This document shows, piece after piece, positions 42,386-49,082 of a stretch of 64,000 bases of DNA. Source of the stretch: an uncultured Chryseobacterium sp. (lineage in GTDB: Bacteria > Bacteroidota > Bacteroidia > Flavobacteriales > Weeksellaceae); the NCBI GenBank assembly GCA_913775525.1, contig CAJYLH010000041.1, positions 57,592 through 121,591 on the forward strand. The letters run 5' to 3'. The translations under genes and the position numbers were made by a program. The notes beneath the pieces were generated by a model that worked only from the letters and a program-made list of their open reading frames with translations, did no database searches and was not told the origin of the DNA. The first letter of the stretch is position 1. Each line of letters opens with the position of its first letter.

Positions 42386-43624
42386 ATGAAAATTTTCAAG
42401 TTTGGCGGTGCATCAGTAAAAGATGCCGAGAGTGTAAAGAATGTATCTATGGTGCTGAAAAGCCAGGGATTTTCCAAATGCCTGCTGGTTATTTCCGCTA
42501 TGGGTAAAACGACGAATGATCTTGAAAAAGTGGTAGAACTTTATTTCAAGAAAGATAACTATCAGGCCGAAATTGAAAAGATAAAACATAAACATATCGG
42601 TATTGCAGAGGGGCTTTTTAATCAGGGCCATGCTGTTTTTGCTGAAATCAACCTGTTTTTTGATGATATAGATTCTTTCCTGAGAAGGAACAAATCTCCG
42701 AATTATAACTTTGTCTATGACCAGGTAGTAAGCTGCGGGGAAATGATTTCCACCAAAATTGTGAGCGAATACCTCAACGAAATCCAGTTTACCAACCAGT
42801 GGCTGGATGCAAGGGATTATGTAAAGACAGACAACTCTTACCGTGAAGGGGTTGTTGACTGGGATAAAACGGAAGAATTCATTTCCACCCTGAGCAGGGA
42901 TATCTGCTATGTCACACAAGGTTTCATCGGGTCCGACGACAATAATTTCACAGTAACGCTTGGGCGTGAAGGTTCCGATTATTCTGCGGCGATTTTTGCC
43001 TACTGCCTGAATGCAGAAGCCATGACGATCTGGAAAGATGTACCGGGTGTCATGACCGGAGATCCAAGGAAATTCCAGAATGTATCCCTCCTTTCCCATA
43101 TTTCCTATGAAGAGGCCATTGAAATGGCATATTACGGGGCGAGCGTCATCCACCCTAAAACACTGCAGCCTTTACAGCAGAAAAACATCCCGTTCTATGT
43201 AAAATCGTTTATTGATCCTACCAAAGAAGGAACAAAAGTAGGGGCTTCAGAAAAGAACCTGAGTGAAGAATCATACATTTTAAAAGAAAATCAGACCTTA
43301 CTGAAAATTTCCACCCGGGATTTTTCATTTATCGCAGAAGACCATATGAGCCTGATTTTCGGATACCTTTCCAAATATAAAATTAAAGTGTCCCTGATGC
43401 AGAATTCTGCCATCTCACTGGCGTTATGCCTGGAGGATAAATTCAATACTGCTGAAGAGCTGAATCTTGAGCTTCAGAAAGTATTTAAAACAGACCTGAT
43501 TAAAAATGTATCTTTGTTTACGGTAAGAAATGCTAAGATGGACCATATCGACCAATTTTATCAGGAAAAAAACGTATTGCTGGAACAGATTTCCAAAAAT
43601 ACGCTTCAAATGGTAACACAATAA
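42386..43624 (+). CDS. lysC: Aspartate kinase, monofunctional
   Basis: A 412-residue aspartokinase. It begins MKIFKFGGASVKDAESVKNV, with the KFGG nucleotide motif at its start. VVSCGEMISTKIVSEYL, FTVTLGREGSDYSAAIFAYC and WKDVPGVMTGDPR follow as the ATP/aspartate site. The last 110 residues form ACT domains for feedback control. It is not fused to homoserine dehydrogenase. It catalyses the first step to lysine, threonine and methionine. The OlsF-like gene follows after 22 bp on the same strand. Confidence 0.95.
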   Translation: MKIFKFGGASVKDAESVKNVSMVLKSQGFSKCLLVISAMGKTTNDLEKVVELYFKKDNYQAEIEKIKHKHIGIAEGLFNQGHAVFAEINLFFDDIDSFLRRNKSPNYNFVYDQVVSCGEMISTKIVSEYLNEIQFTNQWLDARDYVKTDNSYREGVVDWDKTEEFISTLSRDICYVTQGFIGSDDNNFTVTLGREGSDYSAAIFAYCLNAEAMTIWKDVPGVMTGDPRKFQNVSLLSHISYEEAIEMAYYGASVIHPKTLQPLQQKNIPFYVKSFIDPTKEGTKVGASEKNLSEESYILKENQTLLKISTRDFSFIAEDHMSLIFGYLSKYKIKVSLMQNSAISLALCLEDKFNTAEELNLELQKVFKTDLIKNVSLFTVRNAKMDHIDQFYQEKNVLLEQISKNTLQMVTQ

Positions 43625-43646
43625 AACTAATAGCGACTAAACACAC

Positions 43647-45488
43647 ATGAGTTTAATTTCGAAAAACGATCTGATCAAAGCTTCCGGTTTAAGCAAACTG
43701 GGATTTCTCAAGAATCCTGTAGCCTCTGCCATTATGAGTGTTGCCAAAATCAATGAAGTCAACAAACTGTATAATACCCTTAAGGATAAGGAAGGAAAAG
43801 ACTTTTTCGACTCATTTGTAAGAGAAAGAAACCTCAGCTATATCGCTTTTGAAGAAGACCTTGCGAAAATCCCCAAGACAGGACCTTTTATCCTGGTTTC
43901 CAACCATCCTCTTGGTGCTATCGACGGAATTCTGATGTGCAAGATCCTCACGGAAGTCCGTCCGGATTTCAAGGTGATGGGCAATTTCCTGCTGGAAAAA
44001 ATAAAGCCTATGGAACCGTATGTGATTTCCGTCAATCCGTTTGAAGGAAGAAAAGAAGCATACAGCAGTTCTTCCGGGATGCGGGAGACCCTTAAGCATT
44101 TACAGAACGGAGGCTGCGTAGGGATTTTCCCTGCGGGAGAAGTATCCAACAAGAACAATCCCTATGGCGAAATTCTGGATAAAGACTGGGAAAAGCCTGC
44201 ATTAAAGCTGATCCGTGCGGCCAAGGTACCTGTGGTACCCATGTATTTCCACGCCAAAAACAGCCGTCTCTTCTATCAGTTATCAAAATTACACCCTAAC
44301 CTCCAGACGCTGATGCTGCCTGCGGAAATGATGAATGAGCGGGAAGACCCTATCAGGATCCGTTTCGGAAGGCCAATTTCGGTAAAAGCCATGGATGAAA
44401 TGGAAACTATTGAAGAGCTTGGCGAATTCCTGAAACGCAAAGTGTACATGATGAAATCCTATTATGAAAAAAGGAAATCTCTGGCACAGGCCATTAACCT
44501 GAAAAATCTTTCGGTTAAATTCCCTTTGCTGAAAGAGGAGAATATCGTCCAGAACATCATTGATGAAACCCCGAAAGAGGATATCCTTCAGGACATCCGC
44601 AAACTTAAGGATACGGATAAAATGCTTTTCAGGAACGGAAATTATGAAGTCTACTTTACCAATTATGAGGAAATTCCTTCAATCATGAGGGAAATCGGGC
44701 GCCAGCGTGAGCTGACTTTCCGCGCCGTGGGCGAAGGCAGTAACCTTCCTTTTGACCTGGATGAATATGATAAGCATTACCACCACCTTTTTCTTTGGGA
44801 CAGCACTGCAGAACGCCTTGTAGGCGCTTACAGGATGGCACTGGGTAAGGAAGTCATGAAGAAATCCGGCATTAAAGGATTTTATACAAGTTCCCTGTTT
44901 GAATTTGAACAGGATATCCATCCTTTCTTTAAGAAAGTGATTGAAATGGGAAGAGCCTATATCTGCCAGGATTACCAGCAAAAGCCTTTGCCATTATTCC
45001 TTTTATGGAGGGGAATCGTGCACGTATGCCTGAGAAATCCGGATCATAAATTCCTGATGGGCGGCGTGAGCATATCCAATAAATTCTCTGAATTCTCAAA
45101 GTCCCTGATGATTGAATTCATGCGTTCCAACTATTTCGATTCTGCGGTAGCCCAATACATTACTCCGAGAAATGAGTATAAAGTAAAGCTCCGTGACCGG
45201 GATAAGCACCTGTTCTTTGACGAAATGGAATCTGACCTGAATAAACTGGATAAGATCATCGACGATTTGGAACCGGAACTGAGGCTTCCCGTCCTGATTA
45301 AAAAGTATATTAAGCAGAATGCCAAGGTTATTGCTTTTAACGTGGACCCGAATTTCAATGATGCGATAGACGGCCTGATGTACATCAGGATCAGTGATCT
45401 TCCCGAAAGCACCATCAAACCGGTATTGGAAGAGATGAGTGAACAGATCAGGAAGGAACAGGAAAATAATCCGGCTGAAAATCAATAG
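43647..45488 (+). CDS. olsF: OlsF-like bifunctional acyltransferase
   Basis: A 613-residue two-domain protein. The N-terminal PlsC-like domain has HX4D in LVSNHPLGAIDGILMCK (about residues 85-100), NPFEGRKEAYSSSSG, the glycerophosphate-site motif GIFPAGEVS and VPVVPMYFHAKN. The C-terminal part (about 330-560) is GNAT/autoinducer-synthase-like, with RQRELTFRAVGEGSNLPFDL and LVGAYRMALGKEV. This matches OlsF, which makes ornithine or glycine lipids: the C-terminal half N-acylates the amino acid and the N-terminal half O-acylates the product. Bacteroidota use such aminolipids in the outer membrane. Confidence 0.85.
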   Translation: MSLISKNDLIKASGLSKLGFLKNPVASAIMSVAKINEVNKLYNTLKDKEGKDFFDSFVRERNLSYIAFEEDLAKIPKTGPFILVSNHPLGAIDGILMCKILTEVRPDFKVMGNFLLEKIKPMEPYVISVNPFEGRKEAYSSSSGMRETLKHLQNGGCVGIFPAGEVSNKNNPYGEILDKDWEKPALKLIRAAKVPVVPMYFHAKNSRLFYQLSKLHPNLQTLMLPAEMMNEREDPIRIRFGRPISVKAMDEMETIEELGEFLKRKVYMMKSYYEKRKSLAQAINLKNLSVKFPLLKEENIVQNIIDETPKEDILQDIRKLKDTDKMLFRNGNYEVYFTNYEEIPSIMREIGRQRELTFRAVGEGSNLPFDLDEYDKHYHHLFLWDSTAERLVGAYRMALGKEVMKKSGIKGFYTSSLFEFEQDIHPFFKKVIEMGRAYICQDYQQKPLPLFLLWRGIVHVCLRNPDHKFLMGGVSISNKFSEFSKSLMIEFMRSNYFDSAVAQYITPRNEYKVKLRDRDKHLFFDEMESDLNKLDKIIDDLEPELRLPVLIKKYIKQNAKVIAFNVDPNFNDAIDGLMYIRISDLPESTIKPVLEEMSEQIRKEQENNPAENQ

Positions 45489-45546
45489 GTTTTTGATTTC
45501 TGCTAAAAAAATACGGTTAATATTTGCTTCATAAACAAAAACGCAG

Positions 45547-45554
45547 TACTTTTG
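45547..45554 (+). promoter_or_regulatory. TAnnTTTG -7 box of tRNA-Phe copy 1
   Basis: TACTTTTG, 39 nt before the tRNA, with TTTG about 19 nt further upstream as a -33 element. The box is repeated exactly before copy 2. Confidence 0.65.
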
Positions 45555-45593
45555 CAACACTTTAAAACAAAGAAGTAACACAACAACCATAAT

Positions 45594-45666
45594 GGTTTCT
45601 TAGCTCAGTTGGTAGAGCAATGGATTGAAAATCCATGTGTCCCTGGTTCGATTCCTGGAGAAACCA
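45594..45666 (+). tRNA. tRNA-Phe (GAA), copy 1
   Basis: A 73-nt cloverleaf: acceptor GGTTTCT / AGAAACC, D stem GCTC/GAGC, anticodon stem ATGGA/TCCAT with loop TTGAAAA (anticodon GAA), a 5-nt variable loop, T stem CCTGG/CCTGG-complement around TTCGATT, and discriminator A. CCA is not encoded. It lies downstream of olsF and opens the duplicated segment. Confidence 0.97.
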
Positions 45667-45670
45667 CTTG

Positions 45671-45696
45671 AAAACCTCTGATGAGTCAGAGGTTTT
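45671..45696 (+). terminator. Terminator of tRNA-Phe copy 1
   Basis: AAAACCTCTGA / TCAGAGGTTTT, an 11-bp stem with TGAG loop and a run of seven T, 4 bp after the tRNA. Confidence 0.92.
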
Positions 45697-45819
45697 TTTG
45701 TTTTTTGCAACCAGCATCCGTTTCAAATAGAACAGGTTATGGTGGTTATTTTTTAAGGAATGGCTCAGATTCAAAATCTAATTCGTAACTATTTAATTGA
45801 TACACTTGATGAGAAAGGA

Positions 45820-47469
45820 TCATTTTTTCCTAAAAGCCTCTATCTGAGAACATAAAACCAGCTTTGAAAGATCAATCTCCAATGGATGCTGACTTTCATT
45901 AATTACCCTCAGCGTCGTGTTATCCAAATCAAATTGTTCAACGAAACAATAGTAAAGCGTCCTTAAAAGCATTTTTTGATTTATATCTTCCTTCTTATGC
46001 AGATTAAAATACAGCTTAGGATATTTATCACTTGTTAAGTGGAGAGAAAGCATCTGCTCCTCTCCATAAAAATGGATACCGGCTCCCCATCCGCTCAGCC
46101 GTTTTACCCTTCCTTTATTTGAAATAGCATATTTACCTTCAAAACCCGGTAATGGCTTCCAGCACTCATCCGGTAAATCTTTTAGGGATAAATCCAATAT
46201 GGGAGGCAGATTCTTTTTATCGATCCGGGGTTTGCCCAGCTTTTCCCAAAGCAGGGCGTTAAATACTTTTTTGTTATTAAGAACTGTCCTTACCTGTGTA
46301 GCTAACTGTTTATTTCTTTCCGTAAGGATATCTGTAAAAGACTGCAATGTGATCTTTGAAATATCGATATCCCAGTGAGGATAACTTGCGTTCTGAACGA
46401 TCAACGTTTTATTTTTAAGATCAAACTGTTCAATAAAACAGTAATAAAGCATCCGGATAATGGTTATGCTATACGTTCTTCCTTCACTGGCTAGCGTAAT
46501 ATAAAGAGCGTATTTTTCATTCCCGGACTTGCGTACAGAGAGTGACATGATATGCTCTTTCCAAAAAGTCGGGGTTTTACCATGGGTCCATGTATTCAAT
46601 CGCTTTACTCTTCCTTTATTTGAAATAGCAAAATACTGTTCGAGATCGGGAACCGGCTTCCAGTATTCTCCGGGAAGATCATTCAACGACAAATTCATAC
46701 AGGCCGGAGGGTTGCTTTCATCTATAGTGGGCTGCCCGAGCTTCTTCCATAAATTTGTATTGAGTATTTTATCCGGTTTATTTTTTTTTGTCTCCGGTGC
46801 AAAATCTTTCTTAACGGGTGTATATTCTTTTTCAAACCACAAAAATTTCCCTGCAGTAAATCTTTTTTTATTGATTACTGACAAAATATGAACAGGATTA
46901 ATTCCCAGAGTTTTACCTGCCTCATAAATATTTTCATAACTGGCCACAAAATCACCTTCAACCGTGTATTGGCTTACTGCCTGCCGGTAATTTCCTTTTT
47001 TTCCTCTCCCTGTATCCATCGACTTACTATGCAGCTTGCCTACTGTCAGCTTCTCCAGATTGCTAAAATGTACATGAAAATGATTATCATCCTTAAAAGA
47101 GATAAGAAATGAAAGATCATCCATATTGAATTTTTCAACAAAATGATAATACACCAAACGCGCTACTGACCTTCCATATTGTTTTCCTTCGATACAAAGG
47201 TTACATTTGACACTATAAAAATAAGCCTGCAAGTACTTATTAAAATACCTGAAAGCCTGTAGTTTCAAAATTTTATCTTTAAGCCGATTTACTCCTCCAT
47301 AATAATTTACAACACATCGCTCCAGGCTTTTTAAACGCCCATAATTTGAAATAGCATAATTTTCAAAATCTTCTACGGTCTTCCATTCCTCTCCCGGGAG
47401 ATCTTCCAGGGAAAGATTGGAAAGTACAGTGTTTACATATTCATCTCCTGATTCTGTTGGCAGTTTCAT
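45820..47469 (-). CDS. Protein of three NUMOD4/HNH-like modules, catalysis apparently lost
   Basis: A 549-residue protein made of three related modules of about 120 residues (near 19-140, 259-381 and 426-547). Each opens with a NUMOD4 motif, as in WKPVPDLEQYFAISNKGRVK, and closes with an LYYCFIEQFDL block and a degenerate HNH_3-like tail. Between modules 1 and 2 is a NUMOD1-like helix region (YENIYEAGKTLGINPVHIL). NUMOD motifs bind DNA in homing endonucleases. The expected catalytic HxD/HNH residues are replaced in every module (ISFKDDN, VQNASYP, INESQHP), so it may bind but not cut DNA. Start at ATG 47469. No immunity-like gene is nearby. Confidence 0.75.
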   Translation of the reverse strand: MKLPTESGDEYVNTVLSNLSLEDLPGEEWKTVEDFENYAISNYGRLKSLERCVVNYYGGVNRLKDKILKLQAFRYFNKYLQAYFYSVKCNLCIEGKQYGRSVARLVYYHFVEKFNMDDLSFLISFKDDNHFHVHFSNLEKLTVGKLHSKSMDTGRGKKGNYRQAVSQYTVEGDFVASYENIYEAGKTLGINPVHILSVINKKRFTAGKFLWFEKEYTPVKKDFAPETKKNKPDKILNTNLWKKLGQPTIDESNPPACMNLSLNDLPGEYWKPVPDLEQYFAISNKGRVKRLNTWTHGKTPTFWKEHIMSLSVRKSGNEKYALYITLASEGRTYSITIIRMLYYCFIEQFDLKNKTLIVQNASYPHWDIDISKITLQSFTDILTERNKQLATQVRTVLNNKKVFNALLWEKLGKPRIDKKNLPPILDLSLKDLPDECWKPLPGFEGKYAISNKGRVKRLSGWGAGIHFYGEEQMLSLHLTSDKYPKLYFNLHKKEDINQKMLLRTLYYCFVEQFDLDNTTLRVINESQHPLEIDLSKLVLCSQIEAFRKK

Positions 47470-47593
47470 TTTCCGAAGTTCTTTTTTGTAAATTATTTGA
47501 TTTAAGTACCGTCTAATGTAGCACAAGTTTTACAATATCAGTTATTTTTTTTGTCCAGATCATATGAACCGGAAACTATTCAACAACAAAAAA

Positions 47594-47619
47594 GCAGAAT
47601 GAGTAATGGGTCATTCTGC
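47594..47619 (-). terminator. Terminator between tssD and NUMOD4 gene
   Basis: GCAGAATGA / TCATTCTGC, a perfect 9-bp stem with an 8-nt loop, followed on the minus strand by six T. It lies 29 bp after the TssD stop. Confidence 0.8.
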
Positions 47620-47647
47620 CTGATGTGTCAGCTTGTATGCTGATTAA

Positions 47648-48055
47648 TTATTTCATTGGCCATGCTCCATCGTAAGAAGAGTTGCCCAGATCAATCTTTT
47701 CTGCGCTAACCACGAAACTGATGTACATGCTGTTATCGTCTACAGCATCAAAATCTACCTCGTGCTGGATGACGTAACCATTGGTCCATTTCAGTGTTGT
47801 TAATGTTCCTTCCTCATGAGATTTATTAAAGGTTACTTCTCCTTCGGTAGGCTTGTATTTACCGTTCAGCAAACTTTCCAGGATATCTGATTTATCAGTC
47901 GCTTCTACAGTAATCTTGATGAGTGCATTGGAAGGATCTGATGCTACACGTCCTGAAACGTCCGTGGATCTCGATACGCTGTAATTAAGTTTTAACAGCT
48001 TTTGTGCTTCCCCATTGTTGAATTTTAAAATTCCTCTAGAATTCATTTCTGCCAT
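47648..48055 (-). CDS. T6SS tube protein TssD (Hcp-like), orphan
   Basis: A 135-residue protein of the Bacteroidota TssD type: MNSRGILKFNNGEAQKLLKL, then YSVSRSTDVSGRVASDPSNA, then EGTLTTLKWTNGYVIQHEVDF and a C-terminal block ending SSYDGAWPMK. TssD forms hexameric rings stacked as the inner tube of subtype iii type VI secretion systems, and variant copies can carry effectors. No other T6SS gene is in the window, so this is an orphan copy. The next gene in the direction of transcription is the NUMOD4-module protein. Confidence 0.85.
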   Translation of the reverse strand: MAEMNSRGILKFNNGEAQKLLKLNYSVSRSTDVSGRVASDPSNALIKITVEATDKSDILESLLNGKYKPTEGEVTFNKSHEEGTLTTLKWTNGYVIQHEVDFDAVDDNSMYISFVVSAEKIDLGNSSYDGAWPMK

Positions 48056-48108
48056 GATGTGTAAATTTTAATGGTTAATATTCTGTGATTGTTTATTTTG
48101 TATACCAC

Positions 48109-48116
48109 CAAATTTA
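48109..48116 (-). promoter_or_regulatory. TAnnTTTG -7 box of tssD
   Basis: TAAATTTG on the minus strand, 53 nt before the TssD ATG. Confidence 0.55.
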
Positions 48117-48335
48117 GATGGAATAACAATAAGTAAGTATAATTTGCACTTAAATTTTAAAAAGTGTAGTAATTCTACGATTTTCAAACCTCTGAATATG
48201 ATCGTATTGAAGTGAGAACCGGTAACAGGACGGCAGTGATCTAAAAATTTTAGAGCAAATCACTTGCATGGTATTGTAAAATAATATACTTTTGCAACAC
48301 TTTAAAACAATGAAGTAACACAACAACCCTATAAT

Positions 48336-48408
48336 GGTTTCTTAGCTCAGTTGGTAGAGCAATGGATTGAAAATCCATGTGTCCCTGGTTCGATTCCTGG
48401 AGAAACCA
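48336..48408 (+). tRNA. tRNA-Phe (GAA), copy 2
   Basis: Identical over all 73 nt to the tRNA at 45594-45666, including anticodon GAA and discriminator A. It has its own promoter box (48287-48294) and its own terminator. Confidence 0.97.
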
Positions 48409-48412
48409 CTTG

Positions 48413-48438
48413 AAAACCTCTGATTGCTCAGAGGTTTT
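48413..48438 (+). terminator. Terminator of tRNA-Phe copy 2
   Basis: Same 11-bp stem as after copy 1, with loop TTGC, followed by seven T. Confidence 0.92.
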
Positions 48439-48512
48439 TTTGTTTTTAATCCGATATTTGAAACGCCTCACAGATCAAAATCTGTAAACCTTTATAAAGA
48501 TCATCAGACCTA

Positions 48513-49082
48513 TTATAATTCCAGCAACACTTTTCCTGAATTCCAGACGGTTGCAAACTCACCGTTTAAATTGGCGAGAGCGGTTAAATGAATCAGTTCC
48601 GCATCATATTTTTCACCGTTAATCCCGATCCTGTCAAAAGCAGCCGTTGCATCAGAAATTACGTAGGTTTCATACCCAAAGTTCCCTGCCATCCTTGCAG
48701 TGGTGGAAACACAATGATTCGTGGTGATTCCCACGATGACCAGAGTGTGGATATCCTGTACGTCCAACTGTTCTTTTAAATCAGTTCCGATAAAAGCACT
48801 GTTCACATTTTTGGTGATGACAGGTTCCCCTGGAAGGGGCAGTACTTCATCACTGAACTGAAATCCGTGATGGGACTCATGGAGCCTGGAATCCTTATTG
48901 GTGGAACTGTGCCTGATGTGGAAAACCGGAAGTTTAAGTTCCCTCCAGCTTTCCAGCAGCCTTCCACAGATTTTTTCTGCATCTTTATTATTCCTGTTGC
49001 CTCCCCAGTAATCATCATCCAGGAAACCCTTCTGAACATCAACCAGAATCAGAGCCGGTTTCTTATCACTTAATATACCCAT
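48513..49082 (-). CDS. Isochorismatase-family cysteine hydrolase
   Basis: A 189-residue hydrolase of the isochorismatase/nicotinamidase superfamily. Catalytic Asp lies in LILVDVQKGFLDDDYWGG, the Lys region in VITKNVNSAFIGTDL, and the nucleophile Cys in IVGITTNHCVSTTARMAGN. Substrates of the family include nicotinamide and other amides. It follows an alpha/beta hydrolase gene by 23 bp, so the two form an operon, with an HxlR regulator divergent from it. The 74 bp after it lead to the second tRNA-Phe terminator. Confidence 0.9.
   Translation of the reverse strand: MGILSDKKPALILVDVQKGFLDDDYWGGNRNNKDAEKICGRLLESWRELKLPVFHIRHSSTNKDSRLHESHHGFQFSDEVLPLPGEPVITKNVNSAFIGTDLKEQLDVQDIHTLVIVGITTNHCVSTTARMAGNFGYETYVISDATAAFDRIGINGEKYDAELIHLTALANLNGEFATVWNSGKVLLEL

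Follow-up and report, generated by a model that had tools for sequence, protein, structure and literature searches.

A mobile family of two- and three-module NUMOD4 proteins without the catalytic histidine in Chryseobacterium

Introduction

Homing endonucleases are usually pictured as enzymes that either cut or decay. The window, which is the whole analysed stretch of 64,000 nucleotides from an uncultured Chryseobacterium sp. (contig CAJYLH010000041.1), carries a gene for a protein with three tandem modules of this kind, and it raises the question of whether such a protein still cuts DNA, is falling into decay, or has been kept for another use. A sequence-only reading of the locus had considered the product a modular DNA-binding protein, a T6SS cargo or a decayed mobile nuclease. 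Here we report the layout of the protein, the fate of its catalytic residues, the selection on its family and the way in which the gene moves.

Results

Layout of the triple-module protein

The positions of the gene, its modules and its neighbours are given in Table 1. The open frame on the minus strand covers 45820-47526 (568 aa), and translation probably starts at 47469 (MKLPTE), the MKL at which four aligned relatives also begin. Pfam detected NUMOD4 in three stretches of the protein (PF07463, E 2.6e-30, 104.8 bits against a cut-off of 23.4). PHROG families labelled 'HNH endonuclease' also matched it, with a best E of 1.3e-33, and the only label obtained from PADLOC was 'homing endonuclease' (2.2e-14).

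Table 1. Features in and around the triple-module gene, in window coordinates
Feature	Position	Strand	Remark
CDS, triple NUMOD4 protein, 549 aa	45820..47469	-	stop codon 45820-45822
Module 1: NUMOD4 and degenerate HNH_3 tail	47023..47421	-	His position is F125; D127 and N137 kept
NUMOD4 of module 1	47248..47391	-	Pfam PF07463
NUMOD1-like segment after module 1	46897..46977	-	Pfam E 0.0054, under cut-off
Module 2: NUMOD4 and degenerate HNH tail	46318..46698	-	His position is N360; helix Asn replaced by Lys
NUMOD4 of module 2	46522..46668	-	Pfam
Module 3: NUMOD4 and degenerate HNH tail	45826..46197	-	His position is N524; helix Asn replaced by K536
NUMOD4 of module 3	46090..46167	-	Pfam
Approximate inserted unit, single gene with ~72 bp upstream and ~65 bp downstream	45745..47550		absent from G012
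Direct repeat GTTATTTTTT, one insertion edge	45745..45754	+	possible target duplication
Second GTTATTTTTT copy, other insertion edge	47541..47550	+	direct repeat
TACATTAG, where related triple-module copies have the promoter-like box TAAATTAG	47513..47520	-	
tRNA-Phe (GAA) beside the insertion	45594..45667	+	
tssD/Hcp gene, outside the unit	47648..48055	-	also in G012 without the insertion
Second tRNA-Phe copy	48336..48409	+	

HNH_3 was not found by Pfam in the window protein even at E 1. It was found in three intact single-module relatives at 3.2e-10 and 3.5e-10, both over the cut-off, and at 5.6e-5, the third, at 23.1 bits, falling slightly short of the cut-off (24.8). We compared tail profiles between the intact relatives, group g17 (L120-L123, from a related genus) and the three module types of the family (M1, M2 and M3). 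Taken stepwise, the comparison gave 98% from the intact sequences plus g17 to M1, 99% from M1 to M2 and 99.95% from M2 to M3; taken directly, the intact sequences plus g17 gave 94% with M2 and 70% with M3, and the three intact sequences alone gave 90%, 14% and 6% with the tails of M1, M2 and M3. Homology of all three tails to HNH_3 is thereby supported step by step. The layout expected from the sequence-only reading, three modules each with a NUMOD4 motif and an HNH_3-derived tail, was confirmed by the three Pfam hits and by this chain of profiles, while of the three profiles proposed as a check NUMOD4 was recovered three times, NUMOD1 only below its cut-off and HNH_3 not at all. The AlphaFold model (five sequences) was unusable (mean pLDDT 36.4, pTM 0.20), and a PDB sequence search returned nothing relevant, with no solved chain below E 0.43.

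Loss of the catalytic histidine

The residues were counted in an alignment of 173 modules from 77 proteins, comprising 19 full triples, 2 triples without module 1 (L058 and L115, counted for modules 2 and 3 only) and 56 doubles, one of them from a plasmid record and one from another genus. WIN_NUM (a duplicate of WIN_3), L064 and L070 (one module detected) and frames shorter than 330 aa, such as L051, L055 and L116, were dropped before counting. Near-identical copies were retained, so the counts are not independent.

The results showed that none of the 172 modules with a letter at the position carries the catalytic His, which is present in 3/3 intact and 4/4 g17 controls. In M1 the position may hold F, Y, C, S, T, P or A; all 76 M2 modules with a letter have Asn, and the 21 M3 modules have Asn (19) or Ser (2). 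A VHR His occurs in 1/173 aligned modules. All modules 1 (75/75 proteins) retain the Asn of the terminal helix (NLE); among the M2 and M3 modules with a letter there, Lys occupies the position in 85/96 and Asn in 9/96. The loss of the catalytic His is a property of the family and not a private decay of the window gene. The sequence-only reading had stated that no module keeps the expected catalytic His or Asn; this holds for the His in all three modules and for the helix Asn in modules 2 and 3, but not for the helix Asn of module 1, which is retained as N137. Homologues with intact HNH residues, which it had advised looking for, do exist, namely the three single-module relatives and g17, all of which keep the catalytic His. 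The g17 proteins keep the catalytic His and Asn residues (4/4) but have lost the VHR His (4/4), and they thus look intermediate. In every module the NUMOD4 core and its basic residues belong to the best-conserved parts, and in M2 the NUMOD4 residues S283, R287, K289, R290 and W294 are each present in 77/77.

Distribution, selection and module history

At E 1e-5, relatives occurred in 65 of 173 genomes of the genus (one genome per species), with up to 8 matches per genome when fragments are counted; the window's own genome (G000, 4.11 Mb) is among them and has one. A family-wide sample gave relatives in 61/296 genomes and 3/33 genera, and an order-wide sample, which overlaps with it and was searched at the stricter 1e-8, gave 19/346 genomes and 2/104 genera. 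A contig scan with a single protein as query confirmed 5 loci. Among the genomes searched, the family is nearly confined to one genus.

The family has two forms, one with two modules (~390-400 aa) and one with three (~550 aa), and across the family module spacing is near-constant and the module borders fall at almost identical residues. In a FastTree module tree rooted on the three intact modules, all M1 formed one clade (0.977), and M2 and M3 together formed another at lower support (0.643), in which M3 was nested as a clade of its own (0.953). Because M3 is a single clade within the M2 group, the third module must have arisen a single time, out of a module of the M2 type.

The family is under purifying selection. 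Over 116 pairs with a synonymous difference of 0.02-0.55, drawn from 74 frames that run without interruption for at least 370 codons, the median dN/dS was 0.18, the pairs not being independent of each other. The window protein and L038 differed with a dS of 0.80 and a dN of 0.142, and two close pairs gave dN/dS values of 0.47 and 0.49. Many family matches in the genus genomes are split or contain stops.

Insertion between tRNA-Phe and tssD

Judged with a 901-bp probe (95%), G012 is the nearest of the 173 genomes, and it has no match to the protein. It carries the acyltransferase gene, tRNA-Phe, tssD and tRNA-Phe without the triple-module gene, which makes it an empty site. Window segments 43100-45741 (94%) and 47541-48798 (90%) are contiguous in G012 save for 5 bp, indicating that a unit of ~1.8 kb, with borders uncertain by ~10-25 bp, was inserted between tRNA-Phe and tssD. 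The GTTATTTTTT repeat at the two edges is possibly a target duplication; it is short, T-rich and of low complexity, and may have arisen by chance. A second clean empty site was sought by comparing L095 with L169-L180 (tRNA-Met) and at L093 and L067, and none was found, the flanks being variable or rearranged.

Upstream of the gene, TTTG-N19-TAAATTAG, which we take to be a Bacteroidota-type promoter pattern, was present in 8/18 of the triple-form loci listed, and a looser pattern occurred in 12/78 loci, where shuffles gave 1.9. The window copy matches neither the full nor the looser pattern.

The tRNA-Phe gene and its flanks are duplicated (window 45547-45705 and 48287-48447, 161 bp, 96%), with tssD in between. 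In G013 (L167 2673-5969), a different insert of ~3.3 kb occupies the same tRNA-Phe/tssD spacer; near its end, 54 bp from the 3' region of tRNA-Phe are repeated, as at an integration hot spot. Near ~8307-8483 of L093 (query L093:7500-8800), two stretches of ~80-90 bp recur elsewhere in many genomes of the genus as a dispersed small repeat. Across the family, 6/78 copies have a tRNA gene no more than 500 bp away against 1.3 expected, and among 81 loci the neighbour clusters c1, c2 and c4 recur in 16, 14 and 11. In a scan of one or two members per cluster, c1 showed a T9SS sorting tail, c2 (two members) no Pfam match and c4 DUF6443. The closeness to tRNA genes and the recurring neighbours suggest insertion hot spots.

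Mobility and cassette arrays

The family gene moves as a short single-gene unit. L105 and L106, from different species, share 1,374 bp at 99.85% identity between unrelated flanks, and L101 and L103, also from different species, share 1,448 bp at 99.66%, again between unrelated flanks. One border of each pair coincides with the 14-bp motif TCTCAAAAAACGAT or a one-letter variant; the borders away from it are 5' in L101/L103 and 3' in L105/L106.

Around 78 copies, TCTCAAAAAACGAT (at most 1 mismatch) has 56 sites oriented like the gene and 3 oriented the other way. A co-oriented site lies within 250 bp of 14/78 copies and an anti-oriented one within that distance of none, and five copies, one of them a three-module gene (L053), have the motif on both sides. 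Other ORFs of at least 150 aa were near the motif in 28/560 cases over all loci and in 3/461 where the family gene is without it. The remaining 64/78 copies, the window's included, have no TCTCAAAAAACGAT within 250 bp. Among the ends of shared segments (at least 93% identity, 150-4,000 bp; L105 and L110 left out as covered by L238 and L251), 22/77 fall within 6 bp of TCTCAAAAAACGAT, two mismatches allowed, against 1.2 expected, and 55/77 are not at the motif.

The exact 16-mer AATCTCAAAAAACGAT occurs in 80/173 genomes, with one copy in the window's genome, and is often clustered in one orientation; its reversed control gave 2 matches in 173 rows. Co-oriented cassette arrays bounded by TCTCAAAAAACGAT were found across the genus (L238-L248, L250, L101, L053 and others), and they are possibly an undescribed exchange platform. 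The window insertion itself was rejected as a 14-bp cassette, as there is no clear TCTCAAAAAACGAT site in the window; the empty site of G012 holds only AAAAAACG on the minus strand, which is suggestive and was not counted. The window copy stands in no array.

The array cargo was assessed from 81 of 157 ORFs (co-oriented, at least 80 aa, without L249 and L251; one is a family member), its families being known from 25/96 of the Pfam and 25/124 of the PADLOC families listed. It includes three DUF1016/YhcG nucleases, three Mrr-type nucleases and single KAP, GmrSD and UvrD proteins, together with unrelated enzymes and transposases. A tyrosine recombinase stands at the array end in L101, L105/L238 and L239, and none was noticed by eye from the ORF starts in L241, L242, L244 and L247. 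At L238:12951-14767 the recombinase adjoins an IS91-type Y2 transposase, and ORFs with the same starts are present in L239; the recombinase may thus be incidental to the arrays, and its candidacy as the cassette integrase is doubtful. The L105 recombinase, the only one tested, scored 170 bits with the integron-integrase model TIGR02249 (cut-off 265). Folding of the 14-bp site like attC was not seen in a crude complementarity test (mean 5.82 against 5.48 in shuffles).

Discussion

The catalytic His is gone, the DNA-gripping parts are preserved and the family is mobile, so the protein appears to be a recycled DNA binder and not a broken enzyme. Our main reading, to which we give a probability of about 0.55, is that it is a nuclease-dead multi-module DNA-binding protein, from a family kept by selection and carried as a single-gene unit, which acts by occupying DNA and not by cutting it. 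Binding is predicted from what is known of the NUMOD4 family. Among the roles named by the sequence-only reading, a modular DNA-binding protein of dead modules is the one that the conserved NUMOD4, the missing His (0/172) and the purifying selection support best.

Evidence against a dead nuclease comes from module 1, which keeps D127, N137 and a conserved H109 (68/75), so that a weak or rewired nuclease is possible there. The protein would then be an active enzyme with a rewired metal site, for example M1 H109/D127/N129/N137 or M2 N360/W366 with D369/K372. Such a site would fit the conservation in M1 (n=75) of K126 (73), D127 (74), N129 (73) and N137 (75) and in M2 (n=77) of N360 (76) and W366 (75), as well as the intermediate-looking g17 with their catalytic His (4/4). 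We nevertheless consider it rather improbable, since the catalytic-His position is variable in M1, no His of M1 other than H109 reaches 90%, H109 itself sits in a YYHF segment away from the HNH His column, and both D369 and K372 of M2 are below 90%. Somewhat more improbable is a relic, that is, a homing endonuclease without its nuclease that decays neutrally and spreads solely by hitch-hiking on mobile DNA. The lost His, the many split or stop-containing matches and the high mobility are what such a relic would leave, but the replacement residues are conserved, the module spacing is near-constant and 74 frames of at least 370 codons are uninterrupted, and neutral decay is disfavoured by the median dN/dS. 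The label of a decayed mobile nuclease thus stands for homing-endonuclease-type descent and for mobility and falls for decay, as selection maintains the protein.

The arrays bring in an immunity-type reading, in which the protein is a cargo like that of rAID (recombinase-associated acquired interbacterial defence) arrays and binds an incoming nuclease toxin, protein to protein, instead of DNA. The co-oriented arrays with a conserved intergenic motif that hold some copies reproduce part of the rAID layout, as far as it is set out in the accessible part of PMC12247911, and the recurring clusters c1, c2 and c4 would also suit it. We consider this reading unlikely: the 25/96 Pfam families listed for the 81 array ORFs include nucleases and unrelated enzymes and no immunity family, the NUMOD4 residues are strongly conserved, and the protein, at 549 aa, is longer than the ~100-300 codons stated there for the genes of rAID arrays. 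The protein might also recognise target sites and steer its own insertion while another recombinase cuts and joins; the single-gene insertion, the excess of copies beside tRNA genes, and the opposite orientations of L070 and L095 beside one tRNA-Met neighbourhood would agree with this. But the window copy is without a clear 14-bp site, and other segments share the 14-bp boundaries, so such mobility needs no family protein, and we regard self-mobilisation as very unlikely. A T6SS cargo or effector tied to the adjacent tssD, which the sequence-only reading had considered, is scarcely credible. The gene lies downstream of tssD on the same strand, but tssD stands in G012 without it, and tblastn at 1e-6 found tssD in none of the 80 stretches around other copies (up to ~6 kb on each side, less at contig ends), with a positive control on L001 that worked. 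A general link is rejected on these grounds, and the tssD beside the window gene is a local coincidence. Two more tssD genes lie ~9 kb apart on contig C35 of the window's genome (46065-46445 and 55174-55551), and a T6SS locus may be there.

Under the reading of a nuclease-dead DNA-binding protein, the family would derive from NUMOD4-HNH_3 homing-endonuclease modules, the catalytic His having been lost in an ancestor. There would have been a form with two modules (M1, NUMOD1, linker, M2), and one duplication of an M2-type module, which the module tree supports, would have given the three-module form. In the lineage of the window, a single-gene unit entered the tRNA-Phe/tssD spacer, as the empty site shows, and in other species some copies stand in cassette arrays that are bounded by the motif and whose varied cargo is in part defence-like. 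Each NUMOD4, and NUMOD1, would contact DNA, with the degenerate HNH tails as docking or structural parts, and three linked modules would give a long and specific footprint. Occupying the DNA, the protein may serve as a repressor, or as a shield or silencer against mobile DNA that enters the cell or against homing nucleases related to it, the defence-like role being suggested only by the array neighbours.

A broader proposal, which we put forward tentatively and hold to be doubtful, is that Chryseobacterium domesticated homing-endonuclease modules into nuclease-dead two- and three-module DNA-binders that spread as single genes, partly in integron-like TCTCAAAAAACGAT cassettes, and protect the host by occupying or silencing invading mobile DNA. 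A whole family in which the cutting residue was lost and the DNA-gripping modules multiplied, and which is kept by selection and moves as single genes, would plainly illustrate how selfish nuclease modules can become DNA-binding proteins. Its members with one, two and three modules would form a series, made by nature, in which to study how specificity is built. The cassette arrays bounded by the 14-bp site could be a new gene-exchange platform in Bacteroidota.

Comparison with known systems

In the literature available to us, which is without most subscription journals, we found no publication on such a NUMOD4 and HNH family, none matching Chryseobacterium integrons or cassette arrays, and no description of an integron-like system with the 14-bp site TCTCAAAAAACGAT. 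The arrays resemble chromosomal integrons in that their cassettes stand in one orientation and are bounded by a repeated site; they differ in that the site is without attC-like complementarity by the crude test and the L105 recombinase is below the integron-integrase cut-off. The rAID arrays of Bacteroidales have, by definition, a tyrosine recombinase and short genes of one orientation with motifs between them, and their cargo is orphan immunity genes (PMC12247911). The arrays that hold some family copies share with them the co-oriented layout and the presence of a conserved intergenic motif; they differ in that a recombinase was seen by some arrays only and that the cargo, as far as listed, is mixed.

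The g17 proteins share NUMOD4, an HNH-derived tail, NUMOD1 and the lost VHR His with the family but have a single NUMOD4, one and four NUMOD1 (two proteins scanned) and intact HNH His and Asn residues. A scan of viral contigs with two short peptide patterns confirmed no relative. The likeness to the phage NUMOD4-HNH_3(-NUMOD1) homing endonucleases (I-HmuI-like) lies in module 1, which has the same domain order of NUMOD4, HNH tail and NUMOD1 and is 28-31% identical in this part among the 20 phage records listed, such as Streptococcus phage Javan220 and Bacteroides phage BS162P1. In contrast to these single-module phage enzymes, the Chryseobacterium family is bacterial and nearly genus-specific, has two or three modules, and carries the catalytic His in none of the modules examined.
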